DNA of 50,851 bases from an uncultured Clostridia bacterium. GTDB taxonomy: Bacteria; Bacillota; Clostridia; Christensenellales; Borkfalkiaceae. The position numbers and the translations under genes were made by a program. Under the pieces are notes generated by a model. The model was not told the DNA's origin. It saw nothing but the letters and a program-made list of their open reading frames with translations, and did no database searches. Shown here one piece after another: positions 2,777-48,772 of this stretch; position 1 is the stretch's first letter, and the number at the start of each line of letters is the position of its first letter. The DNA lies in contig CALVPX010000053.1 of NCBI GenBank assembly GCA_944354265.1, positions 1 to 50,851 of the forward strand. Reading direction: 5' to 3'.

Positions 2777-2808
2777 GATTATGCGTGACATAGTACATCG
2801 CAAATATT
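2777..2808 (+). repeat. interspersed motif copy a (TATGnnnnnCATA core, GTACA, GCAAATATT)
   Basis: Intergenic copy of the recurring motif, read on the plus strand: GATTATGCGTGACATAGTAC, then ATC, then GCAAATATT. It lies directly after the stop codon of the minus-strand gene at 2809-3216 and about 25 bases from the TSCPD terminator. See the finding on the motif family. Confidence 0.7.
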
Positions 2809-3216
2809 CTAAATTTTGATATTTTTGATCAGCATGCTGAATTCGGACATGTCTTTTCCGTTCAATTGAAGATAAAAGCATCTTCCATGATAACCGCCGT
2901 CCGTCATGTAACGCACGATGTTGAAGCCGGAGTAGCTGTCCTCAACTTTGACGAGCAACTTTTCAAAAGGCATTTCATTAAATTCGCATACGCCGTCAAA
3001 GACAAATTCTATCCACTCACCCTCCTTCATTTGTTCGCGGGTCAAACTGTCGAGGCTGACGCCGAAGGCCGGCATTTCCATGGCATCGAACACCATTTCA
3101 TTCCAACCGTTGAGTATGCGAACGTACTCTTCTTCGCCTTTGAAAAATTCGTGCGACAGACTGTCTTTATAAATAATTACAGAAGAACTGTTACTGAAAA
3201 TCTGAGTAAACTGCAT
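2809..3216 (-). CDS. small acidic protein of unknown function
   Basis: 135 residues, acidic, with no signal peptide or membrane segment. It reads as a compact alpha/beta domain (SVIIYKDSLSHEFFKGEEEY, WIEFVFDGV, RCFYLQLNG). I do not recognise a family. It sits alone between the TSCPD gene (convergent) and the nfn terminator, so it probably has its own promoter in 3217-3260. Coding status rests on the open frame and plausible composition. Confidence 0.5.
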   Translation of the reverse strand: MQFTQIFSNSSSVIIYKDSLSHEFFKGEEEYVRILNGWNEMVFDAMEMPAFGVSLDSLTREQMKEGEWIEFVFDGVCEFNEMPFEKLLVKVEDSYSGFNIVRYMTDGGYHGRCFYLQLNGKDMSEFSMLIKNIKI

Positions 3217-3260
3217 TTTTCACCACATAAATATTATGAGCAATGTTCCGATAAATATTT

Positions 3261-3288
3261 AGGCGGGCGTCTGACAAAGCGCCCGCCT
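3261..3288 (-). terminator. terminator after the nfnB-like gene
   Basis: A 9-bp GC stem AGGCGGGCG / CGCCCGCCT, followed on the minus strand by AAATATTTAT. It closes the 3306-5828 unit. Confidence 0.6.
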
Positions 3289-3305
3289 AAGCTGTAAGCA
3301 ATCAG

Positions 3306-4721
3306 TTAATTTTTTGACGAGATATACTCATCAATCGCCTTGGCGGCAGTTTTTCCCGCACCCATTGCAAGTATTACAGTAGCTGCGCCCGTTACGGCAT
3401 CGCCGCCTGCAAAGACGCCTTCCTTTGAGGTTTTGCCCGTAGATTCTTCAACTATGATTCCGCCGTGTTTGTTTACGTCGAGACCTTCCGTCGTATTTTT
3501 TATCAACGGATTGGGACTCGTGCCTATAGCCATTATAACGCAGTCAACGGGAATGACATATTTGCTTCCCGGTATCTCTACGGGACGGCGCCTGCCGTTG
3601 CTGTCAGGCTCGCCAAGCTCGCATTTTATGACCTTAATCCCCGTAACAAAGCCGTTTTTGGGGTCGCGGCGGTCGTCAGGGTTGTGGTAGCCCAAAATTT
3701 CGACGGGATTATTGAGTATTTTAAACTCTATACCCTCCTCCTCGGCGTGTTCGACCTCCTCCTTTCTTGCGGGAATTTCTTCCATAGATCTGCGGTAAAT
3801 TATGTAGACGTGATCTGCACCCAATCTCAATGCCGTGCGCGCTGCATCCATCGCAACGTTGCCGCCGCCGACGACAGCGACCGTTTTGGCGTGCATGATG
3901 GGCGTGTGGCTGTGGCCGTCGTAAGCCTTCATCAGGTTGCTGCGGGTAAGGAATTCATTTGCGGAGTAGACGCCCTTGAGGCTTTCGCCGGGAATACCCA
4001 TAAATCTTGGCAAACCTGCACCCGAGCCGACAAATACGGCCTCATACCCGTCCTCGAACAGTTCGTCGATTGTCAGCGTTTTGCCGATTACGACGTTGGT
4101 TTCCACTTCGACGCCGTACTTTTTGAGCGTATCAACTTCCTTCTGCACGATAGCCTTGGGCAATCTGAATTCGGGTATGCCATAGACGAGCACGCCGCCC
4201 GCGAGATGCAGAGCTTCAAAAACGGTGACCTTGTAGCCCTTTTTGGCCAAATCGCCCGCACATGTCAGACCGGAGGGACCCGAACCGATGACGGCAACTT
4301 TATGACCGTTCGATTGGGGCACTTCAGGTTCGCCGACATAATTTTGGTTGTGGTAGTCAGCCACAAAGCGTTCAAGCCTGCCTATGCCGACGGGCTCAAA
4401 CTTTATGCCGAGCGTACATTTGCTTTCGCATTGAGTTTCCTGAGGGCAGACCCTGCCGCACACCGCGGGCAGCGACGACGATTGAGCGATAATCTGATAA
4501 GCGCCCTCAAAGTCGCTCTCCTTAACTTTGGAGATAAAATCGGGAATGGATATGTTTACGGGGCATCCCTCGACGCAGGGGCGGTTTTTGCAGTTGAGGC
4601 ATCTTTGCGCTTCGGCAACCGCTATTTCAGGGGTGTAGCCCAAGGCTACCTCCTTAAAGTTCTTTGCCCTAACTAAAGCTTCCTGCACGGGCATTTCGTG
4701 CTTTTTGGGTTGAATAGCCAT
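3306..4721 (-). CDS. nfnB: NfnB-like / glutamate synthase small-subunit-like NADPH oxidoreductase
   Basis: 471 residues. The N-terminal part carries two [4Fe-4S] Cys sets (Cys41, 44, 49, 53 and Cys88, 92, 98, 102). A first Rossmann site lies at 146-151 (GSGPSG, FAD) and a second at about 285-290 (GGGNVA, NADPH). Alone, this is the GltD/NADPH-dependent glutamate synthase small-subunit fold, often annotated gltA. Directly upstream, with a one-base gap, lies a ferredoxin-NADP reductase-like subunit, the arrangement of NfnAB, which couples NADH and reduced ferredoxin to NADP+ reduction by flavin-based electron bifurcation. A sulfide dehydrogenase (SudAB) label would describe the same pair. No glutamate synthase large subunit is nearby, which favours Nfn. 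Confidence 0.85.
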   Translation of the reverse strand: MAIQPKKHEMPVQEALVRAKNFKEVALGYTPEIAVAEAQRCLNCKNRPCVEGCPVNISIPDFISKVKESDFEGAYQIIAQSSSLPAVCGRVCPQETQCESKCTLGIKFEPVGIGRLERFVADYHNQNYVGEPEVPQSNGHKVAVIGSGPSGLTCAGDLAKKGYKVTVFEALHLAGGVLVYGIPEFRLPKAIVQKEVDTLKKYGVEVETNVVIGKTLTIDELFEDGYEAVFVGSGAGLPRFMGIPGESLKGVYSANEFLTRSNLMKAYDGHSHTPIMHAKTVAVVGGGNVAMDAARTALRLGADHVYIIYRRSMEEIPARKEEVEHAEEEGIEFKILNNPVEILGYHNPDDRRDPKNGFVTGIKVIKCELGEPDSNGRRRPVEIPGSKYVIPVDCVIMAIGTSPNPLIKNTTEGLDVNKHGGIIVEESTGKTSKEGVFAGGDAVTGAATVILAMGAGKTAAKAIDEYISSKN

Positions 4722-4722
4722 T

Positions 4723-5565
4723 TTATTTCACCTCCTGTCTGAAGAGGTTGCACGTCTCCTCTCTTTCGTGGCGTTCAAAATCTGAATACATCGTGGAGCG
4801 CTCCATTGCTTCGTCGAAGTCGACCTCAAAGCCGTTGAAGTCGGGGCCGTCGACGCAGGCAAACTTCGTCTTGCCGCCAACGGTCAGGCGGCAGCCGCCG
4901 CACATGCCCGTGCCGTCTATCATTATGGGGTTCATGGACACCGTAGTGGGCACGTTGAAGGGCCTTGTGGTGGCGACGACAAACTTCATCATGATTACGG
5001 GTCCGATGGCTATGACCTCGTCGTACTTTTCGCCGCTCTCCAAAGCCTCTTTGAGAGGAAGAGTAACTACGCCGTGCCTGCCGTAACTGCCGTCGTCGGT
5101 CATTATGGTCAGCTTATCGGAGCAAGCTTTAAATTCATCCTCCAAAATTACAAGGTCTTTATTTCTGAAACCGACAATGGAGTGAACCTCCGCACCGAGT
5201 TTATGAAATTCCTGCGCCACGGGGAGAGCAATCGCGCAGCCTACGCCGCCGCCGACAATGCAGACCTTTTTAACGCCGTCTGTCTTTGTGGGGCAGCCGA
5301 GGGGTCCGACAAAATCTTCTATGTAATCCCCCTCATTCTTTTGGTTGAGCGCCATAGTAGTTGCGCCGACGACCTGAAAGATTATTTTTACGGTGCCGTT
5401 TTCAACGTCGCACCCGGCAATAGTCAGGGGTATCCTTTCGCCGTCTTTATCTACGCGCAGAATTATAAACTGCCCGGCCTTGCCCTTCTTTGCGACGAGC
5501 GGCGCTTCTATATCCATCATTGTGACGGTGGGATTGAGCACCCGCTTTTTAGCGATTTTATACAT
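4723..5565 (-). CDS. nfnA: NfnA-like ferredoxin/NAD(P)H oxidoreductase subunit (FAD, 2Fe-2S)
   Basis: About 280 residues. A FAD-binding barrel (GQFIILRV, RIPLTIAG) is followed by an NAD-binding part with GGGVGCAIALPVA (about 105-117). Near the C-terminus, DGTGMCGGC and a later Cys supply the Asp plus three Cys expected of the [2Fe-2S] site of NfnA and dihydroorotate dehydrogenase K-like proteins. The open frame extends to 5586, but the ATG at 5565 has the GAGGAGG element about 12 bases upstream, and that element would otherwise be inside the gene. It pairs with nfnB (one-base gap). Expected role: the NADH-side subunit of the NADH-dependent ferredoxin:NADP+ oxidoreductase in the cytoplasm. Confidence 0.85.
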   Translation of the reverse strand: MYKIAKKRVLNPTVTMMDIEAPLVAKKGKAGQFIILRVDKDGERIPLTIAGCDVENGTVKIIFQVVGATTMALNQKNEGDYIEDFVGPLGCPTKTDGVKKVCIVGGGVGCAIALPVAQEFHKLGAEVHSIVGFRNKDLVILEDEFKACSDKLTIMTDDGSYGRHGVVTLPLKEALESGEKYDEVIAIGPVIMMKFVVATTRPFNVPTTVSMNPIMIDGTGMCGGCRLTVGGKTKFACVDGPDFNGFEVDFDEAMERSTMYSDFERHEREETCNLFRQEVK

Positions 5566-5582
5566 AAAGTCAACACTCCTCC

Positions 5583-9638: not shown

Positions 9639-10157
9639 TTATCCGGGTAAAATACTGCCATGCACCCCGCCATTTTTGGAGTCAAAAATTTTAACTTCAC
9701 GCCCGATTTTAGCTTCGGTAAGGCGCTTTATGTCTGACATAATACTATTTATTTGAGTAATACTGAAGCGCTTTACATTCAAGAATCTGAACACCCCGTC
9801 TGAATAAAACAGAGCTATCGCCCGAGCATTTGCTCCACTATCTGCCGATACTGTCGTATACTTGATCTCGCACAAGCCCTCATATTTAAGTCGAATTTTT
9901 TCTTGCCTAATGTTTACGAATACACGATTTTCGGACAGAGTCAGCCCCTCCTCATCAAGCACAAGTTTATAGGAGAATATCTCTATAAAAGTCCAAACCA
10001 AGCCGACGGCTGCAAGCACAATCAATATTGCCCCCAAAACTATCTGTCCTGCCACTGCTATTAAAATTGCACCCGCAACTGCCAATATCAATAATGCAGC
10101 TAATACAGCAGCGACAGCCGCAACGTATTTATTTCCTTTTGCTCTATATGCAATCAT
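9639..10157 (-). CDS. two-helix membrane protein with a PH-like cytoplasmic domain
   Basis: 172 residues. Two hydrophobic helices (about residues 11-35 and 38-60, rich in Ala, Ile, Leu and Val) are followed by a soluble beta-rich domain of about 100 residues (YKLVLDEEGLTLSEN..., GLCEIKYTTVSAD, AIALFYSDGVFRFLNVKRFS). This layout matches bacterial PH (bPH/YcxB-like) membrane proteins, whose role is generally unknown. An interspersed-motif copy lies inside the coding region at about 9727-9744. A strong promoter is immediately upstream, and the gene appears monocistronic. Confidence 0.6.
   Translation of the reverse strand: MIAYRAKGNKYVAAVAAVLAALLILAVAGAILIAVAGQIVLGAILIVLAAVGLVWTFIEIFSYKLVLDEEGLTLSENRVFVNIRQEKIRLKYEGLCEIKYTTVSADSGANARAIALFYSDGVFRFLNVKRFSITQINSIMSDIKRLTEAKIGREVKIFDSKNGGVHGSILPG
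9727..9744 (+). repeat. interspersed motif copy h (within a coding region)
   Basis: TTTATGTCTGACATAATA on the plus strand, with the full palindromic core TATGTCTGACATA. It encodes part of the SIMSDIK segment of the overlapping gene. The GTACT flank is changed to ATACT and the GCAAATATT part is absent. Confidence 0.5.
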
Positions 10158-14167: not shown

Positions 14168-14881
14168 TTACCTCGCAGCTTCAATTGCCTGCCGCAAATC
14201 TAACCTTCCTTCGTAAATTGCTTTGCCTACAATTGCCGCATAAATTTTCATTTGACTGAGTTTTTGCAGCTCTTCAAGATATGTAATTCCGCCGGAGGCA
14301 GTGATTTTTATTGATAATGTCTGACATAGTACTTTGTAAATATCTAAATTTGTACCATGCAGACAGCCATCTTTGCTTATATCAGTATAAATAATGTGCT
14401 TTACGCCGATGTTCTGCAGGTTTTTACAAAATTGAACTGAATCTACGGAAGTCTCCTCCTCCCAACCGCTGACGGCGACTTTCCCGCCTTTGGCATCAAC
14501 GCCTACTGAAATTTTTTCGCCGTATTTATCGCACATCTCTTCAACAAAATCAGGATTTTTGATTGCAACCGTACCAAGAATTACACTGCCAACGCCGCAG
14601 TCGAGGTATTTTTTTATTTGTTCTTCGGTCCTTATGCCTCCACCGACTTCGACGTTTATGCTGTACCTCTTTACCAAATCTTCAATTACGGTTGCGTTGT
14701 CGGCCTTGCCGCTGCGGGCGCCGTCGAGGTCGACAATATGTACATTGTTCGCCCCTGCGGCAATGAATTGTTCAATCGCCTGAACGGGCGCAAGCAAGTA
14801 TTTTTTTACGCTGTCGTAGTCGCCACGCGTGAGCCGCACAACATTGCCGTTAATTATGTCTATAGCGGGAAATATCAGCAT
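14168..14881 (-). CDS. hisA: ProFAR isomerase HisA
   Basis: 237 residues, a (beta/alpha)8 barrel with AIDIINGNVVRLTRGD at the N-terminus (catalytic Asp8) and the phosphate-binding segments VGGGIRTEEQI and TASGGITYLEEL. It isomerises ProFAR to PRFAR (step 4). An interspersed-motif copy lies inside the gene at about 14313-14344, encoding DIYKVLCQTLS; the protein length at this spot looks normal, so this is not an insertion that disrupts the fold. Confidence 0.96.
   Translation of the reverse strand: MLIFPAIDIINGNVVRLTRGDYDSVKKYLLAPVQAIEQFIAAGANNVHIVDLDGARSGKADNATVIEDLVKRYSINVEVGGGIRTEEQIKKYLDCGVGSVILGTVAIKNPDFVEEMCDKYGEKISVGVDAKGGKVAVSGWEEETSVDSVQFCKNLQNIGVKHIIYTDISKDGCLHGTNLDIYKVLCQTLSIKITASGGITYLEELQKLSQMKIYAAIVGKAIYEGRLDLRQAIEAAR
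14313..14344 (+). repeat. interspersed motif copy b (inside hisA)
   Basis: GATAATGTCTGACATAGTAC on the plus strand, then TTTGTAAATATC. It shares an exact 20-mer with the intergenic copy at 48737-48772, which is not expected by chance in a window of this size. Confidence 0.75.
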
Positions 14882-16110: not shown

Positions 16111-17166
16111 TCAGCCCTCCAAAATTTCTTTGAGTGCCGCCAACAGGGCGGCAGTTTCCTGATCCGTACCCACAGTAATCCTTATAAAATTTTTAATTCT
16201 CTCGTCCGAAAAATGCCTTACGAGAATGGCCTTTTCCTTGAGCTTGAAATACAAATCTTCTCCGCTCATCTTCTGAGTGCATGCAAGCACAAAATTTGCT
16301 GACGACGGCAACACATAAAAATCCAAATCCTTCAGTCCATCGATAAGTTTTGCGCGCGTTGCAACAATTTTACTTACAGTCAATTTGAAATACTCGTCGT
16401 CTTCTATAGCATTTTTAGCGAGCAGCATCGAGACGGTGTTGACGTTATACGGATGAAAGGAATATTTGACCTTGTTCAAATCTACAATCAGCTTACTGTC
16501 GGCAATGATATATCCCACCCTTGCGCCGGCAAGTGAGCGCGACTTTGAAAAGGTGTTTACCACGACGAGATTGTCGTATTTTTTTATAAGGGGAATTGCG
16601 TTCTCACCGAAGAAATCAACGTATGCCTGATCGACAATTACAATGTTGTCACTGTTCTCTATTATTATCTTTTCAATAGCGCTTAGAGACAGCGCAATAC
16701 CCGTCTGCGCGTTGGGATTGGCTATTACAATCGTTTTATGTTTGGCATAGTACTTTTCAAAATCGATTGAATAGTCTTTTTCAAGATGAATATGCTCCAC
16801 GGGGCAATCGTACATGTGCGCAAACACATCATAGAAGCCGTAAGTTACATCGGCATAGCAGACGCCTCCCCTTCCGTAAGCCTGAAAGCAGAAGGCCAAC
16901 GCCTCATCCGAACCGTTTGTGACCAAAACATTTTCGCTGCTAACCCCGTAATAATTGGCGATTGCTCTTACGAGCGGTTTACATTCGGGGTCGGAATAAC
17001 GCTTAAGATTTTTAAGGACATCCTGAGTAATGCTCTTTACCGCACGGTCGCTTGTATAATACGGATTTTCGTTGGTATTTAATTTTATATAGCTCTTGTC
17101 CTGCGGCTGTTCGCCGGGAACATACGGCGCTATGCCGTTTACCTTTTCACAAGCAAACCTGCTCAT
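16111..17166 (-). CDS. hisC: histidinol-phosphate aminotransferase HisC
   Basis: 351 residues, PLP-dependent class I/II fold. LNTNENPY (about residues 29-36) is the family start; the active-site lysine is in NTFSKSRSLAGARVGYII (about 202-219), and ANPNAQTG at about 148-155. It transaminates imidazole acetol phosphate. A weak interspersed-motif match lies at 16734-16763 within it. It overlaps hisD by four bases and abuts hisB. Confidence 0.95.
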   Translation of the reverse strand: MSRFACEKVNGIAPYVPGEQPQDKSYIKLNTNENPYYTSDRAVKSITQDVLKNLKRYSDPECKPLVRAIANYYGVSSENVLVTNGSDEALAFCFQAYGRGGVCYADVTYGFYDVFAHMYDCPVEHIHLEKDYSIDFEKYYAKHKTIVIANPNAQTGIALSLSAIEKIIIENSDNIVIVDQAYVDFFGENAIPLIKKYDNLVVVNTFSKSRSLAGARVGYIIADSKLIVDLNKVKYSFHPYNVNTVSMLLAKNAIEDDEYFKLTVSKIVATRAKLIDGLKDLDFYVLPSSANFVLACTQKMSGEDLYFKLKEKAILVRHFSDERIKNFIRITVGTDQETAALLAALKEILEG

Positions 17167-18437: not shown

Positions 18438-19057
18438 TTTTTAACCTCTTCAGAAATTTTTTGAATTAAAGTTAAAATTTCTTTGTTCTTAAACCTGTAC
18501 GACGCTTTATTTGCCACCAATCTTGCGCTGATGGGAAATATTTCGGCAAAAACTTTTAAATTATTTTCGCGCAAGGTCGTTCCCGTCTCAACTATATCAA
18601 CTATTACGTCAGACATATCAAGTATGGGCGCGAGCTCTATTGACCCGTTTAGCTTGATGATCTCTATATCTCTGCCAAGTTTTGCATAGTACTTTTTTGC
18701 TACATTGATGAATTTTGTAGCTACGCGGAGCGGGCGGGAAGTATCATCGTACCAATCGCACTTTGCCGCCACGCACATTTTGCATTTGCCCATGCCGAGG
18801 TCGGCAAGTTCGTATACATCGGGGGAACAGTCCTCAATAATGTCTTTCCCGACCACCCCCACATCGGCGGCGCCGCGCTCAACATATACGGCGACATCCG
18901 CAGGTTTAACCCAAAAATAACTTACGCCGCCCTTTTCATCGCGGAAAATAAGTTTGCGGCTGTTCTCGTCATACGCATCGCATTTATAGCCCACATCAGA
19001 CAGGAGCGCATAAACCTTTTCGCCCAATCTGCCCTTAGGCAACGCTATGTTTATCAT
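18434..19057 (-). CDS. hisG: ATP phosphoribosyltransferase catalytic subunit HisG (short form)
   Basis: 207 residues, the short HisG type that lacks the C-terminal ACT-like regulatory domain and needs HisZ. IALPKGRLGEKVY at the N-terminus and the PRPP loop around DIVETGTTLRENNLKVF (about residues 155-171) are clear. It catalyses the first and committed step of histidine synthesis. It starts one base after hisZ ends. Confidence 0.96.
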   Translation of the reverse strand: MINIALPKGRLGEKVYALLSDVGYKCDAYDENSRKLIFRDEKGGVSYFWVKPADVAVYVERGAADVGVVGKDIIEDCSPDVYELADLGMGKCKMCVAAKCDWYDDTSRPLRVATKFINVAKKYYAKLGRDIEIIKLNGSIELAPILDMSDVIVDIVETGTTLRENNLKVFAEIFPISARLVANKASYRFKNKEILTLIQKISEEVKK

Positions 19058-22563: not shown

Positions 22564-24021
22564 TCAATCAAACGGCGGGTCGTCCGACATATCTTCCACT
22601 CCGCCACCGTTATAACCTTCATCTGGCGGAGGATTTCCGCTGTCCGCATTGTCGTATTCGGGAGGCTGAATATCATCGTCAGGTTCGGGATTGACGAATT
22701 TTGTCAGCTCGCCCTTGAAGCGGAGCTTTATTCTGTCGAGGCCGCCGTTCCTGTGCTTGGCGATGATGAGGTCCGCCATGCCCTTGACAATATTGTTCTT
22801 TTTGATTTCTTCGTCTGTCGCCGTTACATCAGGGCGATTTATAAACATTACGATATCTGCGTCCTGCTCTATGGCTCCCGATTCACGCAGATCAGAGAGC
22901 TGAGGTTCCTTAGTCTGCATACGGCGCAGCTGTGAAAGCGCAATTACGGGAACGTTGAGTTCCTTTGCCATAATTTTAAGTTCACGCGTTATATCCGCAA
23001 CTTCCTGAGTGCGGTTGACCTCGCCGCTCTTCTTGCCGCTCGACATAAGCTGTATGTAGTCTATCATGATGAGGTCGAGCTGACCGTTATTTCTAGCCTT
23101 TATCCTGCGGCATTTGGAAAGTATTTCGGCAGGCGTAACGCGGGATGAATCATCTATGTTTATTCTGCTCTTGCGCATTTTATCGGTAGCCTTGGCAATC
23201 TTCTTCCACTCGTTGGGAGTTAGTTCGCCCGAGAGCGCCTTGGACATCGATACTCCCGCATAGCCGCAGACAAGCCTTTGGATAATTTGCTCGTCGGGCA
23301 TTTCTAGGGAGAAAATGGCGCATACCTTATCGTTGTTGAGCGCGGCATTTTCGATAATGTTCATGGCAAGGGAAGTTTTACCCATGCCGGGACGGGCGGC
23401 GATGACTATAAGGTCGGTCTTTTGCAGGCCGTTTGTGAGCTTATCCAAGCGCGTAAATCCCGTCATAACGCCGCGGTAGGCGTCCTTATCCTCGGCGAGC
23501 AACTGAAATTTATTAATTACTCTGTCTATTACGTCGCTCTCGCGGATGTCCCTTATGGATGAAGAATCGTTTGTGCGAGAGATATCATACACAAGACTTT
23601 CGGCGTACTGAACGCTCTGCAGACTGTCGTCGCTACTCTGCGCATACTTGATTATATCGCGGGAGGCGCGAATGAGCCTGCGGTTTACAGAATCGCGCCT
23701 TACAATATCGAAATAACTGTTATAATTTGCCGACGAAGGTGTGATTTGAGTCAGCTCGGTAAGATATGATACCCCGCCCGCCTTTTCGAGATTGCCATCC
23801 GTTTCAAGGCGGTCGATAAGAGTTACCAAATCGACGGGGCGGTGGCTGTTGTAATTCATCTTCATCGCAGACAGAATGTATTGGTGCGATTCCTGATAAA
23901 AATCATCCTCCGTCAGCTTTTCCAACACATCGGGAAGTATTTCGTTGTCAATAAGCATGCACCCCAAGAGCGCCTGTTCGGCGTCGAGGTGGTTGGGCAT
24001 GACGTTGGTTTTGTCTGGCAT
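22564..24021 (-). CDS. dnaB: replicative DNA helicase DnaB
   Basis: 485 residues. N-terminal helical domain (HLDAEQALLGCMLIDNEI) and RecA-like C-terminal domain with Walker A ARPGMGKTSLAMN (Gly212-Thr216), Walker B LDLIMIDYIQLM, and the arginine finger region SQLRRMQTKEPQLSDLRESGAIEQDAD. The C-terminal tail is long and acidic (about 55 residues with many Asp, Pro and Gly). The start ATG has no obvious Shine-Dalgarno and lies inside a weak copy of the interspersed motif. It is the hexameric helicase that unwinds DNA ahead of the fork. The pepF stop lies seven bases upstream. Confidence 0.97.
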   Translation of the reverse strand: MPDKTNVMPNHLDAEQALLGCMLIDNEILPDVLEKLTEDDFYQESHQYILSAMKMNYNSHRPVDLVTLIDRLETDGNLEKAGGVSYLTELTQITPSSANYNSYFDIVRRDSVNRRLIRASRDIIKYAQSSDDSLQSVQYAESLVYDISRTNDSSSIRDIRESDVIDRVINKFQLLAEDKDAYRGVMTGFTRLDKLTNGLQKTDLIVIAARPGMGKTSLAMNIIENAALNNDKVCAIFSLEMPDEQIIQRLVCGYAGVSMSKALSGELTPNEWKKIAKATDKMRKSRINIDDSSRVTPAEILSKCRRIKARNNGQLDLIMIDYIQLMSSGKKSGEVNRTQEVADITRELKIMAKELNVPVIALSQLRRMQTKEPQLSDLRESGAIEQDADIVMFINRPDVTATDEEIKKNNIVKGMADLIIAKHRNGGLDRIKLRFKGELTKFVNPEPDDDIQPPEYDNADSGNPPPDEGYNGGGVEDMSDDPPFD

Positions 24022-24039
24022 AGTACTTTATAAACCCAT
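24009..24039 (+). repeat. weak interspersed motif copy g (over the dnaB start codon)
   Basis: TTTTGTCTGGCATAGTACTT on the plus strand. It keeps GTCTGGCATAGTACT but has lost the full palindrome. The reverse complement contains the dnaB ATG itself. Confidence 0.4.
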
Positions 24040-25803
24040 CAATTTTTCAAATTCGCGCAGGGTATTGTCAAATTCCTTCATCGCAAACTCGAAGGGAGCC
24101 TTGGTCGTGAGGTCTACCCCTGCAAGCTTTAAGAGCGACACGGGATCCGTTGATGAACCGCCCGAAAGGAACTTGAAATAATTCTTGACGGCGCTATCCC
24201 CTTCAGTGAGAATTTTATTGGCGATATTCATGGCCGTTATTATGCCCGTGGAATATTTGTAGACATAGAAGGCCGTGTAGAAATGGGGAATCCTACACCA
24301 CTCGCAGGAAATGTTGTAGTCGTGTTCTATGGCGTCGCCGTAATATTTTTTGCCGAGGTCAGCATAGAGCGAGCATAAATTTTCCTTGGTGAGCGGCTCT
24401 CCCTTTTCCACGAGGTCGTGCGCTTTGAACTCGAATTCGGCAAACATGGTCTGCCTGTGGAGGGTGGCACGGATGGTATCGAGGTAATAATTCAACAGAT
24501 ATTTCTTTAAATTTACGTCTTCAGCCTCGCCGAGCATGAACTTAAGCAACAACACTTCGTTTACCGTGCTTGCCACCTCTGCGACAAAGATGCGGTAATC
24601 AGATTTTGCGTAGGGCTGATTCTTTGTGGAGAAATAAGTGTGGAGCGAATGACCCATTTCATGGGCGATGGTAAACACGTCGTTCAATGTCGGCTGATAA
24701 TTTAAAAGCACAAATGGATGAACGCCGCTTACCCCTGTAGAATATGCGCCGCTGCGCTTGCCTTCGGTCTCCTCGACGTCGATCCAACGCTCATCGTGCC
24801 CTTTTTTAAGCAGAGCCTGATATTCCTTGCCGAGAGGCGCAAGGCCCTTTACCACATAGTCATAGGCATCATCGTAGGACAGTTTAAATTCAACGTCGGA
24901 CACGAGAGGTGCGTATACGTCATAAAAATAGAGTTTGTCATAACCAAGTATCTTTTTCCTGTCCGCAATGTAGCGGTGCATGGCGGGAAAGCTTGTCTCG
25001 ACAGTGGAGAGCAGATTGTCGTAAACCGATCTGTCAACATCCTCTTCAAAGAGGGCGCGCTCGAGGCATGAATTGAACTTGTATGCCTTGCAATAGAAAA
25101 CATCCTTTTTGACGTTGCCGTAATAGGTAGACGTCAATGTATTTAATAAACTTTTATAGGCGCCGTAATATTTTTCGTAAACCTCCCTGCGCTTTTCCCT
25201 GTCGGGCGAGCGCATTACAAGGCCGTACAGCCCGTGTGAAAGCTTTACCTTTTTTCCGTCGAGCTCTATTTCAGGCAAGGGAAGGTCTGCATTGTCTATC
25301 ATGCCGAAAGTTTCTTTGAAGGTTGAAAAGGTTTCTCCGGCAAGGGCGATTAATTTTTCTTCCCCTTCAGACAGGACGTGAGCTTTGCGCTTCACAAGCT
25401 GTTTTATCTGGTAGTCGTAATCAGAAAAATTTTTGTCGGCTATGAGCGACTCAAGGTATTCCTGACTCTGCTTGGCCATTTCGGGCTCAAAGAAGGCAAC
25501 TTCAGCCGAATACTTTGAAATGAGCATGCCGACTTTGCTGTTATAAGAGGTATACTTTGAGACACGGGCGTCCTCGTCGTGCTTCATATAGGCGTATACC
25601 GCAAGTCTTTCGACGAGCATCATAAACTTATCGTTTTCTTTAAGATAGTTTAAAAGCTCATCCCTATCGCCAAGCTTGCCTGCATAGCGTGAAAAATCGA
25701 TCATTGTCGAAGCGCGGTCGTAATCTTTTTTCCACGCTTCATCGTTGGGATAGATGTCCTCTATCGCCCACTTATACTGTTGTTTTACCTCGCTCCTCTG
25801 CAT
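24028..25803 (-). CDS. pepF: oligoendopeptidase F
   Basis: 591 residues, the normal length of M3B peptidases. The zinc motif HEMGH lies at residues 381-385, and the third ligand Glu is in the following helix (about 410-416, RIFVAEVASTVNEVLLLKF). It cleaves short peptides of about 7-17 residues in the cytoplasm. It is the second-last step of a row PFL-family gene, pepF, dnaB with gaps of ten bases or fewer, so it probably shares a transcript with them. Confidence 0.96.
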   Translation of the reverse strand: MQRSEVKQQYKWAIEDIYPNDEAWKKDYDRASTMIDFSRYAGKLGDRDELLNYLKENDKFMMLVERLAVYAYMKHDEDARVSKYTSYNSKVGMLISKYSAEVAFFEPEMAKQSQEYLESLIADKNFSDYDYQIKQLVKRKAHVLSEGEEKLIALAGETFSTFKETFGMIDNADLPLPEIELDGKKVKLSHGLYGLVMRSPDREKRREVYEKYYGAYKSLLNTLTSTYYGNVKKDVFYCKAYKFNSCLERALFEEDVDRSVYDNLLSTVETSFPAMHRYIADRKKILGYDKLYFYDVYAPLVSDVEFKLSYDDAYDYVVKGLAPLGKEYQALLKKGHDERWIDVEETEGKRSGAYSTGVSGVHPFVLLNYQPTLNDVFTIAHEMGHSLHTYFSTKNQPYAKSDYRIFVAEVASTVNEVLLLKFMLGEAEDVNLKKYLLNYYLDTIRATLHRQTMFAEFEFKAHDLVEKGEPLTKENLCSLYADLGKKYYGDAIEHDYNISCEWCRIPHFYTAFYVYKYSTGIITAMNIANKILTEGDSAVKNYFKFLSGGSSTDPVSLLKLAGVDLTTKAPFEFAMKEFDNTLREFEKLMGL

Positions 25804-31719: not shown

Positions 31720-31757
31720 AATTATGTCACGCATAGTAGTCTGCAAATCTGTAAATA
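31720..31757 (+). repeat. interspersed motif copy c
   Basis: AATTATGTCACGCATAGTAG, then TCTGCAAAT and a further TAAATATT. It is intergenic, 18 bases after the DnaD stop codon. The segment from 31721 on shares about 22 of 25 positions with the copy inside murB. Confidence 0.7.
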
Positions 31758-37746: not shown

Positions 37747-40700
37747 CTATTCAACATATTTGATATCTTTTTCAAATATGAATGTTGAAAGTTCGGCCAA
37801 CAGTCCGCGGCAATAATTTACCCCTGTAGGCAGCTTATATTTTTTTGATCCCCTCACTATTGCGCAGGTTGTTGGACCTTCGTAGTTGGACAGCATGGAG
37901 ACGAAATCGTCAAAGTCCGTATCAGAAAGCGCAGTCGCATTCAGCCATAAAACAGGCCCCTTGCCCGCAGAGGATGCCTTTTTCTCCCCGCCCTTCTTTC
38001 CTTCGAAGGCTTCAACATCAAATTCTTTAATGTCGTCCAAAATTATTGAAGGCTCTTTTCCGCCATCGAGGTCAAGCTTGCCCTTTACGGTGACAATTTT
38101 ATCGTTTGCGATAGAAGCTTTTACCCTTTCGAATATTGCAGGGAATGCCACGCACTCGACCGAACCGTAGACATCCTCAACGGTTATAAACGCCATTATA
38201 GCGCCCGTGCGCTTGGTAGTTGTGCGGCGGTACGCTGAGATTATACCGCCCATCTCAACCTGCATGCCCTGTTCAACCTGAGTGTAAGTGCGGTTTCCGT
38301 CCTCGTCCTCGGTATATTCAAGCATGGAACAGTTAAAGTTTTTATCCTTGAATGCCGATTTATATTTGTCGAATGGATGGCCGCTTACATATACACCGAG
38401 CACCTGCTTTTCCTTTGACAGCTTTTCCATCACATCGTATTCGGGAATGTCAGGATACTCCACCTGAAGCTTTTCTTCCTCGATAAATTCACCGAAGAGT
38501 GACATCTGCGCGCCGCTCTTTTGCTTGTTGATGCCGGTCGCACGCGCATAAACGTCGTCATATACGGCAAAGAGGCGCGAACGGGCTATGCCCATGGAAT
38601 CGAACGCACCCGAAAGGATGAGTCCTTCAATTATGCGCTTGTTGACAAATGGTGCACAGCGCAGAACAAAATCGGGGAAATCTTTAAATTCACCGTTCTT
38701 TTCACGCTCGGCAATCACATCGTCTATAGCGCCCTGACCTGTGCCCTTCAACGCCGAAAGGCCAAAGCGCACCCCGCCGTCCTGAACGGAAAACACCGTC
38801 TTTGATTTATTGATATCGGGCGGAAGCACTTTTATGCCCTTATCTTTGAGATAGAGGACATATTTTGTGATTTCCTCAATCTTATTGAGGCGGTTGTTTA
38901 AGAGTGCGCAGATAAATTCCTTACAGTAATACTTTTTCAGCCATGCCGTCTGATAAGCGAGCGTTGCATAGGCGGCAGCATGCGACTTGTTGAACGCATA
39001 GGAAGCAAAGCCCTCCATGTCGGCAAAAATTTTAGCTGCAACTTCGGCAGAGATGCCGTTCTTTACGCATCCCACGATCTCGCTGCCGTTAGTGTCGCTT
39101 ATGCCGCCATAGATAAATTTTTCCTTCTGCGCCATAAGCGTCTTTTTATCCTTCTTGCCCATGGCGCGACGGACGAGGTCGGCTTCGCCAAGGGAGAAGC
39201 CCGCAAGGTACTGAAAGATCTGCATGACCTGTTCCTGATAGACAGGTATGCCGTATGTGACCTTTAAAATTTTCTCCTCTTCGGGGCAGTCATAGGTTAT
39301 GGCCTCTATGCCATGCTTACGGTTGCAGAAGCTGTCTATAAAGCGCATGGGGCCGGGGCGATAGAGCGAGACACCCGCAATCAAGTCCTCCAAGCAGTCG
39401 GGTTTGAGCTGGCGCATGAACTTTTTCATGCCACCGGCTTCGAGCTGGAACACGCCGTCGGTATCGCCTTCGGAAATGAGCGAATAGGCGCCCTCGTCCT
39501 TATATCCTATTTTATTGAAATCTACTTCAAGGCCGTGATTTTCAAGTATATAATCCTTGCACTTCTTAATATCGGTGAGGGTGACGAGCGCAAGGAAGTC
39601 CATCTTGAGCATGCCGAGCGCTTCAATCTCTTTTGCAACGAACTGAGTGGTTATATCTTCGCCATTGCGCGAAAGAGGCACATTGTCGGCTATTTTTTTG
39701 CGGCAGATGACAACGCCTGCGGCGTGCATACCCGTCTGTCGGGGCATGCCTTCGATCTGCATAGCCATATCTATTACGCGACGCAGAGTACTATCTGTTT
39801 CATATATCTCACAGAACTCGCTGTTGCGCACAGCCTTTAAATCGTTGAGTTTGCCCTCCGCCTCGGCCTTTTTGTCGGGATCTGTTTCGGCTTCATATGC
39901 TACCCTCGCCCCTTCAATTCTGCGCCCCAAAAGGTCGCCTATGGACGTCTTGCCATCCATTATCTTGGTCAGCCTGTCCGTCTCAGAATAGGGCACGCGC
40001 ATTACGCGTCCGACGTCTTTTATGGAGTTTTTTGCCGCCATGGTACCGAAAGTGACGATTTGGCAGACATTTTCGGGATGGTATTTCTGACGGACGTACT
40101 CGATAGTTTCACTTCGCCTGTCCGTGCAGAAGTCGATATCGAAGTCGGGCATTGAAACGCGGTCGGGATTGAGGAAGCGCTCGAACAGTAAATCATACTG
40201 CAGAGGCTCAACGTCGGTTATGCCTATCGCATAGGCGACTATTGAACTTACGCCCGAGCCTCGCCCGGGGCCGACGGGTATGCCGTGCGCTTTGGACCAA
40301 TTTATGAAGTCCCAAACTATAAGATAGTATTCCGCAAAACCCATGCCGATAATTACGCCGAGTTCGTATTCGGCGCGGTCAAGTTCGCGCTTTGTAACTT
40401 CCCCGTAACGGCGCTTTAATCCCTCTGATGTAAGTTTTCTCAGATATTCGGGCGGGGTTGAGCCGTCAGGCGGTGTGTAACCGGGAATGAGCGAAGTATC
40501 ACGGATGGGATACCCCTTTTTATCGAGATTGAAGGCGGGCTCCGTCACTTTATCGGCTATGACGCGGGTGTTGGAGATAGCCTTAGGATAGGCCGAAAAG
40601 AGCTGCGCCATCTCGTCGCCCGTTTTAAAGTAAAATTCCTGCGTGTCGAACTTCATGCGCTTGGGGTCGTCGAGCGTCTTTTTCATCTGAATGCACATCA

Positions 40701-43094: not shown

Positions 43095-43129
43095 GATTAT
43101 GTCAGACGTAGTAGTCCGCATAATAAATT
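43095..43129 (+). repeat. interspersed motif copy d
   Basis: GATTATGTCAGACGTAGTAG, then TCCGCATAATAAATT. It fills most of the 54-base gap between murB and the PHP gene. The core inverted repeat reads TATGTCAGACGTA. Confidence 0.7.
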
Positions 43130-43138: not shown

Positions 43139-44056
43139 TTATGTAAATTGCCCCACAAAGACGACCTCTTCCTCAAGCCGGATCTGAAGCTCATTATAGA
43201 CGATATTTTTCACGGCGTCGATAATCCTTTTAATCTCATTGGCCGATGCACCGTCGTTTATAATAAAGTTGCAGTGCCGCGGTGACACATAGGCCCGACG
43301 CGTTCCGTATCCTGCGAGGCCACACTGCTCTATAAGCATGCCCGCAGACAGTCCGGGCGGATTTTTAAATACGCAGCCGCAACTTCTTCCCTTCGGCAAA
43401 CTGCTGCGCCGCGACAGATAAAAACGCGTGAGGTTGCTGACATTGGCCGGGAAATCTGCAAAAACAGAGAGGAAAACGCCGAGGATAAGGCAATTTATGT
43501 TACGCATAGTACTCTGCTTATACGCAAATTTGCAACTCTTATTGGAAAGGTTGCGTTCCGTACCGTCAAAAACTTTGACAGAGACTATGTTAGAGCTTAT
43601 GTATTTGCCACCCGCCCCGCCGTTCATGCAGGCAAGTCCTCCTACACTCGCGGGAATTCCGGCAAGATACTCAAGCCCGCCAAGGCCATGCGTTATGCAA
43701 TAGCGCATAAGCTGCCCCACAGTAGTTCCCGAAAGGCAAAAAATTGTTCCGCCATCAATGCGAATTATGCCGCGCATTTTTGACGTGCAGATTACATATC
43801 CGTCAAATCCGCCGTCGGAAGCGAGAACATTTGAACCGTTGCCGAGAATCGTAAAAGGTTGCTCCCTCTCCTTCAGTGCGGAATAAACTGCCCGCGCCTC
43901 TAAGAGATTTTTTGGGAAAAACGCACATTTTGCACCGCCGCCAAGGCCGTAAGTTGTGTAATGCGAAAAGGTAAAAGCCTTATTTTTTTCAACCTTGTCA
44001 AATATGTCCTGAACGTTGCCAATCAGGTTAATATTTCCACCCTTATATAATAACAT
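43139..44056 (-). CDS. murB: UDP-N-acetylmuramate dehydrogenase MurB
   Basis: 305 residues of the type II (Gram-positive) form. The FAD site includes ILGNGSNVLASDGGFDG (about residues 65-81); the catalytic Ser is in SCGCVFKNP (about 229-237), and the final Glu in RLEEEVVFVG. It reduces the enolpyruvyl group to UDP-MurNAc in peptidoglycan synthesis. A motif copy lies inside at 43492-43533, encoding the conserved YKQSTMRN segment without a visible length change. Confidence 0.95.
   Translation of the reverse strand: MLLYKGGNINLIGNVQDIFDKVEKNKAFTFSHYTTYGLGGGAKCAFFPKNLLEARAVYSALKEREQPFTILGNGSNVLASDGGFDGYVICTSKMRGIIRIDGGTIFCLSGTTVGQLMRYCITHGLGGLEYLAGIPASVGGLACMNGGAGGKYISSNIVSVKVFDGTERNLSNKSCKFAYKQSTMRNINCLILGVFLSVFADFPANVSNLTRFYLSRRSSLPKGRSCGCVFKNPPGLSAGMLIEQCGLAGYGTRRAYVSPRHCNFIINDGASANEIKRIIDAVKNIVYNELQIRLEEEVVFVGQFT
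43492..43533 (+). repeat. interspersed motif copy e (inside murB)
   Basis: AATTTATGTTACGCATAGTA on the plus strand, then CTCTGCTTATACGCAAATTTGC. The core is TATG-nnnnn-CATA-like and it closely resembles the copy after the DnaD gene. A GCAAATTTGC palindrome closes it. Confidence 0.6.
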
Positions 44057-46013: not shown

Positions 46014-46040
46014 ATATCTTCACTCTCTACTTTACATTTT

Positions 46041-46826
46041 TTATTGCTCAATCCATTTTGCATAAAGATAGGTTATTTCATATTTAGTAGATTCAGAAAA
46101 TGAACTCAATTTAATTTCTTTACCAGTAGTGTCTTTTTCAAAATCCCATCTGTTGATACATTCCTCTTCCTTATACCAACCGTCAAAAATATATCCAGCT
46201 CTCTGCGGTTCTGGCGGTATAAATGTAACTATGCTTTCGTCATAGCTATCTACCCAATAATATCCTTCGTTCGGGCTGCCTTCGTAGTTATTAAGATAAG
46301 AAATATTGCCAATTAATCTATTTAAATAGCTTTGAAATTGTAAATCAGCCTCGACCAAATAATCATATCCATATATTATACTACTTACACCATCCAAAAC
46401 TATATTTGTTCTATCCGACATTTCCCATCTAACAGTATAGTTGGAATTCAAGTACCCGCCTATGGAATTACCATTTTCCTGTGGCATGGTGGGGAAATAA
46501 AATTTATTCAAATTGTCGCTCTCTATTCTCCCGACTCTCTCTGTTCCCATGAAGACGTCCCGGTTATACCCAATGCCGTAAACGGGAATTCCCTCTATCT
46601 CTTCGGGATATATCAACTCGGTTTGTTCTTTACCTAACTCAGTTAAACCAACTAAATACGCCTTTTGTGTTCCGTCGTCCAACGTGCGCACGGCGTATCT
46701 GAAGTAACCGCTATCATATTCAGGCAAATAGTCCTCGAAGAACTGCAAATCACACGACGGATAATTACATCCCGATAAAAGCATCATAGATATGGCTGCA
46801 GTTGCAATAGCAATAAGTTTTTTCAT
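46041..46826 (-). CDS. lipoprotein with BspA-like and InlB B-repeat-like segments (paralog 2)
   Basis: 261 residues. Lipobox LLSGC with Cys20. It aligns along its length with the 281-residue neighbour: RYAVRTLDDGTQKAYLVGLTE, the IEGIPVYGIGY segment, GYYWVDSYDESIVTFIPPEP, then the B-repeat with GYIFDGWYKEEECINRWDFE and YLYAKW. Regions between the shared blocks differ, so the pair is an old tandem duplication. Both genes are separated by 27 bases and share a terminator. Confidence 0.7.
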   Translation of the reverse strand: MKKLIAIATAAISMMLLSGCNYPSCDLQFFEDYLPEYDSGYFRYAVRTLDDGTQKAYLVGLTELGKEQTELIYPEEIEGIPVYGIGYNRDVFMGTERVGRIESDNLNKFYFPTMPQENGNSIGGYLNSNYTVRWEMSDRTNIVLDGVSSIIYGYDYLVEADLQFQSYLNRLIGNISYLNNYEGSPNEGYYWVDSYDESIVTFIPPEPQRAGYIFDGWYKEEECINRWDFEKDTTGKEIKLSSFSESTKYEITYLYAKWIEQ

Positions 46827-46849
46827 TATAAATTACCTCTTAAGCTCTA

Positions 46850-47509
46850 TCACATAAATAGTGCAGTCAAAACGTTTTCAGGTTCCTCAATTGAGAGGAA
46901 ATTGAGATAATATTTTAAATCATTCTTAATCGTATACGCTTCTGTGCTATATACACCGCTATCAGCTATGGTGCTATAATAAATTTCCAAATTATCTGAA
47001 TCAAGCTTTTCAAAGTCAGGATTAAAATAGACATCGACGTCTGAAGTGTATATCGAAATTGTCGCAAAAGTCTGAGTTTGTTCGTCAACTAATTCGACCA
47101 TGCCACCTTTTACCGCCATTTCGGTGCTATAAAGAATTGCATAACCTGAAACCTCGTAGTCTGACAAATCAATAATATTCAATCCCGCCTCTTCAATCAC
47201 TTCATAGAACTCGTCGGCCTCAACATTGTCAAGGCGTAAATCGCCGCTATCATAGAACTTCAACCCGTCATCGTCAGAAAGTGTCAGGGGCAAAACTATT
47301 GCAAGGATTACTACAATAAAAAAGGCGGCGATACCGGCAAAAATATACAACTTTGAGCGATTTTTAACCTTAATATTGCCCAAATCAATTTCCGTTTCGC
47401 TTTCGTCAAGTCTTTGATTGATTTGTTCTTCATGTTTGTTATACCAAACATTATATTCTTCCTTCGTATTCTTTACTTTCTTTTTAATATCGCGCTCTAT
47501 TCGTCCCAT
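46850..47509 (-). CDS. single-pass membrane protein, possible anti-sigma or surface-sensor protein
   Basis: 219 residues from ATG 47509, which has GAGGAGA seven bases upstream; the TTG at 47524 is less likely. A charged cytoplasmic N-terminus of about 55 residues (IERDIKKKVKNTKEEYNVWYNKHEEQI, coiled-coil-like), one membrane helix (LYIFAGIAAFFIVVILAIVLPLTL), and an acidic outer domain of about 130 residues follow. This topology is the usual one for anti-sigma factors. It lies in the cluster headed by the ECF sigma gene, so it is the best candidate anti-sigma protein, but no ASD or zinc motif is seen. Confidence 0.5.
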   Translation of the reverse strand: MGRIERDIKKKVKNTKEEYNVWYNKHEEQINQRLDESETEIDLGNIKVKNRSKLYIFAGIAAFFIVVILAIVLPLTLSDDDGLKFYDSGDLRLDNVEADEFYEVIEEAGLNIIDLSDYEVSGYAILYSTEMAVKGGMVELVDEQTQTFATISIYTSDVDVYFNPDFEKLDSDNLEIYYSTIADSGVYSTEAYTIKNDLKYYLNFLSIEEPENVLTALFM

Positions 47510-47553
47510 TTTCCGTCTCCTCAATAAATTTAGAATTATAAAATTTCTCCTGA

Positions 47554-47988
47554 TTATTTAACGGTTATAAATAACCAAACATACCTAAAATTCCAAAGGT
47601 CAGAAGTGCTATCCGCTTCAATACTTACACAATACACTCCCCTATCTTCTATACCTTCAACTTCGCCCGTACCTTCCATTGCAATACTCAAATGAAACAC
47701 ATTGGCGCCTTCTCCTGATGGTGAAAACCATTCATTGCCCCAACGCGGGTGGTCAGGAAGATTGTAACTATCCACCCAATAGGTGCGCTTCCTGCCTGTA
47801 TAGGGAATTTCTATATGTAGTTCGTCCGTACCAACGGGGAACTCATAAATTCTTCCGTCACTACACTCAACACGGATTGCCACGTCGTACTTTGTATCTT
47901 CTTCAGTGCACGCAGCAAAAGCAAAACACATGCACACGCATGCAACCGCCGCCGCTATAATTAATATCAGGCGCTTAAATTTTTTCAT
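47554..47988 (-). CDS. small lipoprotein, function unknown
   Basis: 144 residues. A signal with lipobox AFAAC (Cys27) is followed by a mature domain of about 115 residues with beta-strand character (YDVAIRVECSDGRIYEFPVGTDELHIEIPYTGRK). It contains TYWVDSYNLP, similar to the YYWVDSYD segments in the two lipoproteins further down. No family recognised. Confidence 0.55.
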   Translation of the reverse strand: MKKFKRLILIIAAAVACVCMCFAFAACTEEDTKYDVAIRVECSDGRIYEFPVGTDELHIEIPYTGRKRTYWVDSYNLPDHPRWGNEWFSPSGEGANVFHLSIAMEGTGEVEGIEDRGVYCVSIEADSTSDLWNFRYVWLFITVK

Positions 47989-48112
47989 TTTTATGTCCTC
48001 AAAACATTATTAAAGTGCATTTCGTCGCCGCAATTAAACATTTTGTCGCTCCACCTATGCGCTTCTATATATATGACAATTCAGGAACAAAAAAAGGATA
48101 GAAAAATTTAAT

Positions 48113-48138
48113 AAAGGCCGAAATTATTTTCGACCTTT
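48113..48138 (-). terminator. weak terminator-like hairpin over the sigma gene stop
   Basis: Minus-strand arms AAAGGTCGAAA / TTTCGGCCTTT (one mismatch) overlap the sigma stop codon; T-rich sequence (ATTAAATTTTTC) follows. It may partly separate sigma from the lipoprotein genes. Confidence 0.5.
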
Positions 48139-48639
48139 TTCATATACGGCTTTTATTTTCTTTTTTATTACCGCGTATCTAACTTTGGCAACACCGTATG
48201 TAATACCTAAACTTTCCGCCGCATTATGCAGCGTCATATCCCATACATTATGCAAAACAAAAAGTTCACGCTCTTCATTAGTAAGTTCAACAAAAATATC
48301 TTCCAGCCAAAGCATGTCGGGCAATTGCTTTGAGTTTGTATCCCAAATTTCGGATACGCTTATCTCCCTATTTTGTTTAACAAGAAAATTTTTTGCCTCA
48401 TTTCTCGTCATTGTAATCAGATACCCTACATGATTACGAATTTCAGACACGTCATGTTTAAACTCAAGCAATTTAAGGATAACATCAGAGGCAATATCAT
48501 AGGCGGCGTCTGCATTCTTTACAACATTAAACGCTGTAACGCATAGCTTGCCAAAATATTCTTCATAGATCCGTCCCAAAGCATTTTTATCGCCGTTTTG
48601 GGATTTTATCATTATGTCAATAAATTCCGCCCTTGTCAT
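48124..48639 (-). CDS. ECF-type RNA polymerase sigma factor
   Basis: About 171 residues. The preferred start is ATG 48639: AAGGAG lies nine bases ahead, and the longer frame from TTG 48657 would contain it. Region 2 (NGDKNALGRIYEEYFGKLCVTAFNVVKNADAAYDIASDVILKLLEF) and region 4 (LTNEERELFVLHNVWDMTLHNAAESLGITYGVAKVRYAVIKKKIK) fit ECF sigma factors. It leads a cluster of surface lipoproteins and a membrane protein. The likely logic is that an envelope signal releases sigma to transcribe the cluster. The promoter directly upstream looks like sigma-A. Confidence 0.85.
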   Translation of the reverse strand: MTRAEFIDIMIKSQNGDKNALGRIYEEYFGKLCVTAFNVVKNADAAYDIASDVILKLLEFKHDVSEIRNHVGYLITMTRNEAKNFLVKQNREISVSEIWDTNSKQLPDMLWLEDIFVELTNEERELFVLHNVWDMTLHNAAESLGITYGVAKVRYAVIKKKIKAVYEKGRK

Positions 48640-48662
48640 TGAGTAAAACTCCTTCAAGTTAG

Positions 48663-48691
48663 ATTATATCATTACATAGACCTGATTGCAA
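48663..48691 (-). promoter_or_regulatory. sigma factor gene promoter
   Basis: Minus-strand TTGCAA (48686-48691) and TATAAT (48663-48668), 17-base spacer. It predicts a leader of only about 20 bases. Confidence 0.65.
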
Positions 48692-48736
48692 GACTTACAG
48701 AAAAATAGTTAAACGCTTGAACGAGAGAATTATACT

Positions 48737-48772
48737 GAATAATGTCTGACATAGTACTGCGCAAATATTAAA
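48737..48772 (+). repeat. interspersed motif copy f
   Basis: GAATAATGTCTGACATAGTA on the plus strand, then CTGCGCAAATATTAAA. It lies between the yebC terminator and the sigma promoter. It shares a 20-mer with the hisA copy. Confidence 0.75.

Follow-up and report, generated by a model that had tools for sequence, protein, structure and literature searches.

A polar motif of the terminus region in Candidatus Coproplasma-type Clostridia, its probable PadR-type reader and a possible third replication fork trap

Introduction

What could be the purpose of a short motif whose copies recur between and within the genes of a chromosome and all point the same way? The question is raised by a stretch of 50,851 nucleotides from an uncultured Clostridia bacterium of the Borkfalkiaceae (assembly GCA_944354265.1, contig CALVPX010000053.1, positions 1 to 50,851; hereafter the window), in which the first-pass annotation had listed ten copies of a repeat near TATGTCnGACATAGTACT. 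The motif almost certainly represents a family of polar sites belonging to the terminus of replication. Judging from its sequence and gene context, a PadR-type winged-helix protein with a membrane tail, here called PadR-TM, probably binds and reads it. That the motif is a polar Ter-like binding site, and that the whole makes up a third, previously undescribed replication fork trap, is a proposition for which the sequences leave about even chances.

By 2019 two unrelated fork traps were known, tus and rtp occurring in no more than four clades, according to the accounts in PMC6549158 and PMC10331603. In the literature searched, which was that of an open library only, no fork trap of Clostridia and no PadR-type terminator was found. 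Genomes, contigs and loci are referred to below by running labels, G000 being the genome of the window.

The motif

The motif is the 27-letter ATTATGTCWGACATAGTACTNTGCAAA, with ATTATG marking its 5' end and GCAAA its 3' end. The column frequencies of 141 sites reveal two overlapping imperfect inverted repeats, ATTATGTC-W-GACATAGT, centered on position 9, and GCATAGT/ACTATGC, centered between positions 17 and 18; the palindromic core noticed in the first-pass annotation is present. The left half of the motif also contains an ATGT/ACAT inverted repeat.

A weight matrix trained on 141 sites from other species, with the genome of the window left out, finds nine strong sites in the window with scores of 28.7-36.8 bits, all of them on the plus strand. 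Sixty dinucleotide shuffles of the window gave one match of at least 14 bits in total (20.1 bits). An earlier matrix was trained on G000 and G002, and the strength counts that it gives in those two genomes are partly circular. Nine of the ten copies listed earlier are confirmed, all on the plus strand; the tenth, at 18674-18700, falls below 14 bits and is merely a short match to CATAGTACT. The orientation to one strand holds as well, as the octamer CATAGTAC occurs seven times on the plus strand and never on the minus strand, with 0.56 occurrences expected on both strands together and none of 100 shuffles reaching seven. The 20-mer said to be common to the copy in hisA and the copy at 48737 is found in both.

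Occurrence across genomes

In a scan of the window's own genome, the pattern GACATAGTACTNNGCAAA with up to two mismatches gave 20 matches and the reversed pattern none, and the motif thereby passes the genome-wide test suggested with the first-pass annotation. Eighteen of the 20 matches lie on contigs C50-C54, which make up 306 kb of 1.75 Mb. The concentration is complete in G002, where all 36 pattern matches fall on two contigs that amount to 623 kb out of a total of about 1.8 Mb.

The motif occurs throughout the genus, a group of Candidatus Coproplasma-type Clostridia with named relatives that include Candidatus Coproplasma avicola and C. excrementipullorum. Searched with a model called R1 (built from 53 of 68 sites, 15 having been omitted by eye; E <= 1), all 93 genus genomes contain matches, 5-68 in each. 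Five high-copy genomes (G000, G002, G030, G082 and G116) have 50-68 matches, and most others 10-30. A pattern scan of 37 genus genomes found at least one match in every genome and 293 in all, compared with 17 for the reversed control; in 24 genomes from other families of the order, the same comparison gave 34 and 20.

Polarity about the dif site

A conserved 24-bp inverted repeat, TTCGTAAAANNNNNNTTTTACGAA, is a candidate for the dif site; in five of six genomes compared it precedes the gene for a Xer-type recombinase by a few hundred bp. It is usually present as one perfect copy; its locations include G000:C50:40296-40319, G102:C1:264131, G073:C1:592343 and G093:C1:101421; with up to two mismatches the pattern has a match in 80 of the 93 genus genomes, some of these matches being unconvincing. 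The Xer-type tyrosine recombinase gene lies within about 9 kb of the GC-skew switch in the six genomes compared, the Pfam match having been checked for the G102 protein. In the genome of the window, dif at C50:40296 is situated at the skew maximum of C50, 8 kb from xer. In all 12 genomes with both sides covered, the skew is positive over the 5 kb to the left of dif and becomes negative on the right of it in less than 15 kb, and the left-arm skew of G030 is slightly negative beyond 10 kb. The window itself lies on a right-hand type of arm, with negative GC skew, most long open reading frames (ORFs) on the minus strand and the sites on the plus strand.

The orientation of most sites follows the side of dif on which they lie. 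In 13 genomes, 97 of 128 sites of at least 20 bits have the polarity expected about dif, as do 31 of the 35 sites of at least 34 bits. Concordance is 8/10 at less than 1 kb from dif, 21/26 at 15-30 kb, 34/39 at 30-60 kb and 11/13 at 60-120 kb, and between 15 and 120 kb the polarity is opposite on the two sides for 66 of 78 sites. The suggestion that the motif is a polar signal related to replication is borne out by this behavior and by the clustering of the sites in the terminus part of the chromosome.

At 20 bits, exactly one change of polarity occurs in five of the 13 stretches (G102, G112, G034, G024 and G093). G102 has 15 sites of at least 16 bits, five on the minus strand followed by ten on the plus strand, with the flip between 240 and 256 kb. 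In the stretch of G112 examined, five minus-strand sites are followed by six on the plus strand (11 sites), the flip being between 248 and 268 kb; a weak minus-strand match at 280279 (14.5 bits) is an exception. Genome-wide, 13 of the 16 matches were covered for G102 and 14 of 16 for G112. The corresponding flip in G093 is at 86-101 kb, and in these three genomes the GC-skew switch is close to the flip of the motif.

Two other functions proposed for the motif are not supported. Dif is another sequence and the motif has many more matches per genome, which removes the reading as a dif or other recombination site, and the confinement of the sites to one region and their polarity about dif leave an uptake sequence unsupported. 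A link to the origin was also considered and rejected, as dnaA and parS-like clusters are found on other contigs than most motif matches (G000, G002). These clusters rest on matches with 0-1 mismatch; with one mismatch allowed the control gave 0 matches in each of six other genomes, and with two it was as high as the matches.

Ten sites of at least 20 bits in the 13 genomes are less than 1 kb away from dif, some of them full and others consisting mainly of the left palindrome. In G093, G073, G112 and G102, the region upstream of xer contains a nearly symmetric TTATGTCTGACATAAT-like copy with a degenerate right half, at a distance of about 0.1-0.5 kb from dif.

Origin-like minima of the cumulative GC skew occur on two motif-bearing contigs, G000:C52 (near 45 kb) and G002:C1 (near 185 kb), with dnaA and the parS-like clusters elsewhere. 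It is possible that an inversion or a misassembly lies behind them.

Constraint on sites inside genes

Of 149 sites of at least 20 bits, 88 are inside ORFs, 11 overlie the end of an ORF and 50 are intergenic. Sites are found at the same place in the members of ortholog groups (OG): 7/7 members of OG272, 6/6 of OG22, 5/5 of OG286 and 5/5 of OG290. In comparisons with a conserved amino acid, codon identity amounts to a fraction of 0.73-0.96 at the sites and 0.41-0.49 in the rest of the same genes, in all eight ortholog groups tested, and 0-3 of the 129-696 other segments of these genes reach the value of the site. The eight groups were hand-picked, with OG17 (3/5 members at one place) and OG82 (differing places) left out, and OG31 (4/6) and OG259 (4/5) were represented solely by their site-bearing members; this choice of groups and members by their sites inflates the constraint somewhat. 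Beyond the core, the flanks differ between copies (36 sites).

Some of the window's own sites take part in this conservation. The site in murB is present in 4/5 ortholog members, and in those four the synonymous codons are identical in a fraction of 0.83 there and 0.41 in the rest of the gene. The site at 24008 is at the same place in 3/4 members, and that in hisA is at nearly the same position in the ortholog of G112 (2/2 members examined). The site at 9727 has an almost perfect left palindrome and a degenerate right half.

Table 1. Sites of the motif in the window, scored with the other-species matrix
Position	Strand	Score (bits)	Feature	Location
2778..2804	+	33.8	polar terminus site	intergenic, between ORFs 1843-2367 (+) and 2809-3216 (-)
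9727..9753	+	31.1	polar terminus site	within ORF 9639-10157 (-)
14314..14340	+	36.8	polar terminus site	within hisA (14168-14881, -)
16735..16761	+	34.8	polar terminus site	within ORF 16111-17166 (-), hisC-type aminotransferase by appearance
24008..24034	+	32.4	polar terminus site	over junction of ORFs 22564-24021 (-), DnaB-like, and 24028-25803 (-), PepF-like (both by appearance)
31721..31747	+	35.0	polar terminus site	intergenic, convergent ORFs on both sides
43096..43122	+	28.7	polar terminus site	intergenic
43494..43520	+	30.4	polar terminus site	within murB (43139-44056, -)
48739..48765	+	34.8	polar terminus site	intergenic
39773..39799	+	15.8	weak, doubtful site	
18593..18619	-	15.4	weak, doubtful site, the sole one on the minus strand	

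A candidate protein

The first-pass annotation had suggested that the motif is bound by a dimeric protein, and PadR-TM, with a conserved site before its own gene, is the likely reader. It is encoded by an ORF of 476-677 amino acids with an N-terminal PadR winged-helix domain, a long, low-complexity, disordered-looking linker and about four hydrophobic segments at the C terminus. The protein matches Pfam PF03551 with an E value of 4.4e-20 (71.9 bits, cut-off 27). Its best PDB matches, among the 46 PDB sequence matches and 50 Foldseek matches shown, are PadR proteins, the closest being 9qbc, and a structure model with a mean pLDDT of 73.6 confirms the PadR assignment and nothing further. The hydrophobic C-terminal segments are present in 4/4 genus proteins and in 6/7 proteins from other families, the seventh being cut by the end of the locus.

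A search of 84,980 species genomes gave 269 relatives; of the 80 best padR-TM loci among them, 77 have a motif site on the same strand upstream of the gene. The remaining three lack a site in the first 400 bp: L162 and L230 have 111 and 134 bp of available upstream DNA, and in L228 the nearest site is at -477. In G102, the sole locus scanned, a perfect sigma-70-type promoter, TTGACA-17-TATAAT, begins 12 nt beyond the padR-TM site (3 promoter-like matches, 1.2 expected). From this arrangement, PadR-TM is likely to be autoregulated.

PadR-TM is present as a single copy in 85 of the 93 genus genomes. Seven further genomes with a PadR domain that is 72-74% identical have 13-30 motif matches, and an eighth (G117) has 7. 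In G121:C2, three minus-strand sites at 6-29 kb are followed by five plus-strand sites at 70-112 kb, some of them weak.

The SpoIIM-like protein of OG22, whose gene carries a site at about codon 26 in 6/6 members, was also considered as the binding protein. It was dropped, as the one member scanned had no DNA-binding match.

A possible mechanism of fork arrest

The motif itself, its polar arrangement and clustering around the terminus, the constraint on synonymous codons and the site conserved ahead of padR-TM are computed results; the mechanism described next is a proposal. Two PadR-TM dimers, a number suggested by the overlapping inverted repeats, would bind to one site and form a complex with two unlike faces. 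A fork travelling normally towards dif would meet the GCAAA face at the 3' end and pass. A fork that has overrun dif would meet the ATTATG face at the 5' end and be slowed or stopped, as occurs with RTP-Ter and Tus-Ter. The membrane tail would also tether the terminus near the membrane. Arrest of forks at the sites, as an activity by itself, is about equally probable and improbable in our estimate. The fullest form of the proposal is that of a third, independently evolved polar termination system, in which one membrane-anchored PadR-type protein traps overrunning forks and also keeps the terminus at the membrane, next to dif and Xer, in the service of segregation or sporulation; as deduced from sequence it is a tentative possibility, with the odds somewhat against it.

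Several observations weigh against these proposals, among them sites that face the wrong way. Two conserved sites, in a SpoIIM-like gene (OG22, 6/6 members) and in a D-Ala-D-Ala carboxypeptidase-like gene (OG31, 4/6), face away from dif. Both genes, named by appearance, belong to one gene block, and their sites face away whether the block is to the left of dif (G102, G112, C50) or to the right (G030, G073), at a distance of 1-22 kb, or 49-55 kb in G073. In G102, G112 and G034, the effect of sites of this kind is just that the opposed sites meet 8-32 kb away from dif, on one side of it. Eight of the 13 stretches (G028, G086, G098, G100, G030, G073, G002 and C50 of the window's genome) depart from a single flip, and a strict barrier at every site would create stretches inaccessible to forks in all eight. 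The wrong-way sites thus speak against strict blocking, and therefore some sites are weak, or the barriers are leaky, or the function is other than strict arrest. Likewise, not every ter site blocks in B. subtilis and E. coli, as far as the description in PMC13220808 goes.

The polarity itself is uneven. Concordance is just 14/26 at 1-15 kb from dif and 9/14 beyond 120 kb, and amounts to 33/48 in the high-copy genomes G000, G002 and G030, compared with 64/80 in the ten other genomes. The binomial values for polarity treat orthologous sites common to several genomes as independent, the GC skew flips at dif and not at the flip of the motif, and all the genomes are drafts. Common variants at positions 8-11 of the motif (CACG, GTGA, CTGA and CACA) show no palindromic co-variation, and some genus genomes have weak matches alone (best E 0.03 in G072 and 0.007 in G025). 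With regard to the protein, eight of the 93 motif-bearing genus genomes show no PadR-TM, three of them being at least 90% complete. RTP (PF02334) was over the cut-off in none of eight genomes searched, one control genome being over it (B. subtilis listed first), and RTP is absent from the PDB sequence and Foldseek matches shown for PadR-TM.

Alternative explanations

An alternative that is unlikely on balance and still deserves serious weight is that PadR-TM anchors the terminus to the membrane or the divisome in the manner of MatP and matS, in which case the polarity would serve another purpose or would be a by-product of where the sites lie on the lagging strand. The hydrophobic tail of PadR-TM, the wrong-way sites in more than half of the stretches, the ten sites close to dif and the occurrence of padR-TM by xer in four of seven other families, all four without a repeated motif, are what such anchoring would lead one to expect. 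Anchoring of the matS type requires no polarity, and the strong polarity at 15-120 kb and the asymmetric motif speak against it.

Guidance of a translocase is rather improbable. The sites would steer FtsK, SpoIIIE or another motor to dif, like KOPS, SRS or AIMS, and a reversed minority would do no harm; the change of polarity about dif and the rising density of sites towards dif would fit as well. KOPS are 8 bp long (PMC2680272) and AIMS are octamers (PMC5993296), in the parts of those papers that describe them. The present motif is 27 bp, partly palindromic, rare and regional, so that it was not assigned to KOPS: 18 of the 20 matches in G000 lie on 18% of the genome, and all those in G002 on two contigs. 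Furthermore, G102 has a separate KOPS-like octamer, GGGNAGGG (N = A, C or T), which is skewed towards dif, with 34 copies in G102:C1 1-393211 on the strand pointing at dif and 6 on the other; this hints at a separate, ordinary translocase signal, G-rich words being skewed anyway. A regular-expression search among the fetched proteins did not meet FtsK or SpoIIIE.

It is very improbable that the sites are ordinary operators of a PadR regulon whose enrichment near the terminus is a matter of chance. Most PadR proteins act as regulators, their canonical operator is found in the left half of the motif and a site precedes padR-TM itself; on the other hand, more than half of the sites are inside ORFs, and the orientation of most follows the side of dif. 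The remnant of a mobile or REP-like element, inserted with a replication-strand bias, would account for a short, interspersed, partly palindromic repeat on one strand, and is hardly credible and was rejected, as orthologs in 8 groups have the sites at identical codons with no insertion, the flanks share nothing beyond the core and the synonymous positions are constrained.

Comparison with known systems

The closest resemblance of the proposed fork trap is to RTP-Ter of Bacillus subtilis. As the available part of PMC13220808 describes it, ter in this organism is 32 bp long with two imperfect inverted repeats, and nine sites are spread through a region of about 10% of the chromosome that also contains rtp and dif. 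The present sites are likewise polar, about 30 bp long and built of two overlapping imperfect inverted repeats. They too form opposed groups around dif, not cleanly so in view of the exceptions given above. The candidate has a PadR-type winged helix, and PadR and RTP are described as highly similar in fold and dimer topology, the canonical PadR operator being an ATGT/ACAT inverted repeat (PMC3506622, in the portion dealing with these points). The gene of the candidate is in the terminus region and has a site before it, and PadR-TM may have the role of terminator; for tus and rtp alike, a ter site is located in the area of the promoter, according to the corresponding part of PMC10331603. Unlike RTP, PadR-TM belongs to PF03551, is several times longer and has a membrane tail, and unlike RTP-Ter, the system has 5-68 matches per genome and conserved wrong-way sites near dif, with fork arrest a presumed activity. 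The best sub-threshold match to PF02334, of 14.9 bits, is inside the padR-TM gene of G093. The layout is that of RTP-Ter, yet by its protein the system is no member of it.

As in Tus-Ter of Escherichia coli and relatives, the sites are polar and non-palindromic and form two groups of opposite orientation on either side of dif, and the gene of the candidate terminator has its own site. Tus binds as a monomer (PMC10331603, same part), and the motif here differs from Tus-Ter in its inverted-repeat architecture. With KOPS and AIMS it shares strand bias, the change of polarity about dif and the rise towards the terminus, and differs from them in length, rarity, regional distribution and the dedicated candidate protein. 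Binding sites gathered at the terminus and a possible tie to the membrane or divisome are reminiscent of MatP-matS; matS is palindromic and non-polar, unlike the present motif. PadR and LmrR regulators have the same DNA-binding domain and ATGT/ACAT operator core. Unlike them, PadR-TM is membrane-tailed and is associated with dif/Xer and with many polar chromosomal sites.

A third system, if it is real, would show that the need for fork traps recurs and would offer a new test of trap function; it would have its own protein and a motif that has matches in all searched genomes of a lineage living in the gut and is under constraint at synonymous positions. A route from a PadR regulator to a terminator is suggested, possibly in parallel to RTP. 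A polar site before a winged-helix gene near xer/dif might furthermore serve as a sequence test for hidden fork traps.

PadR-TM outside the genus

In the order, G053 and G055 have 6 motif matches each, five other genomes with a distant PadR-TM have 0-2 and five without PadR-TM have 0-1. A core site of 19.3 bits precedes the padR-TM gene of G053, which is from another family; the inverted repeats upstream of the other-family padR-TM genes have no common motif except in this genome. The gene lies within 1.1 kb of xer in 4/7 other-family genomes: G038, G041 and G059, in which xer was identified by motif, and G045, by resemblance. The occurrence of PadR-TM beside xer in four families without the repeated motif suggests an older role at the terminus.

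The loci of these four families are L290, L291, L234 and L237, in genomes with 0-2 motif matches; a LexA-like gene is a further neighbor in L290.

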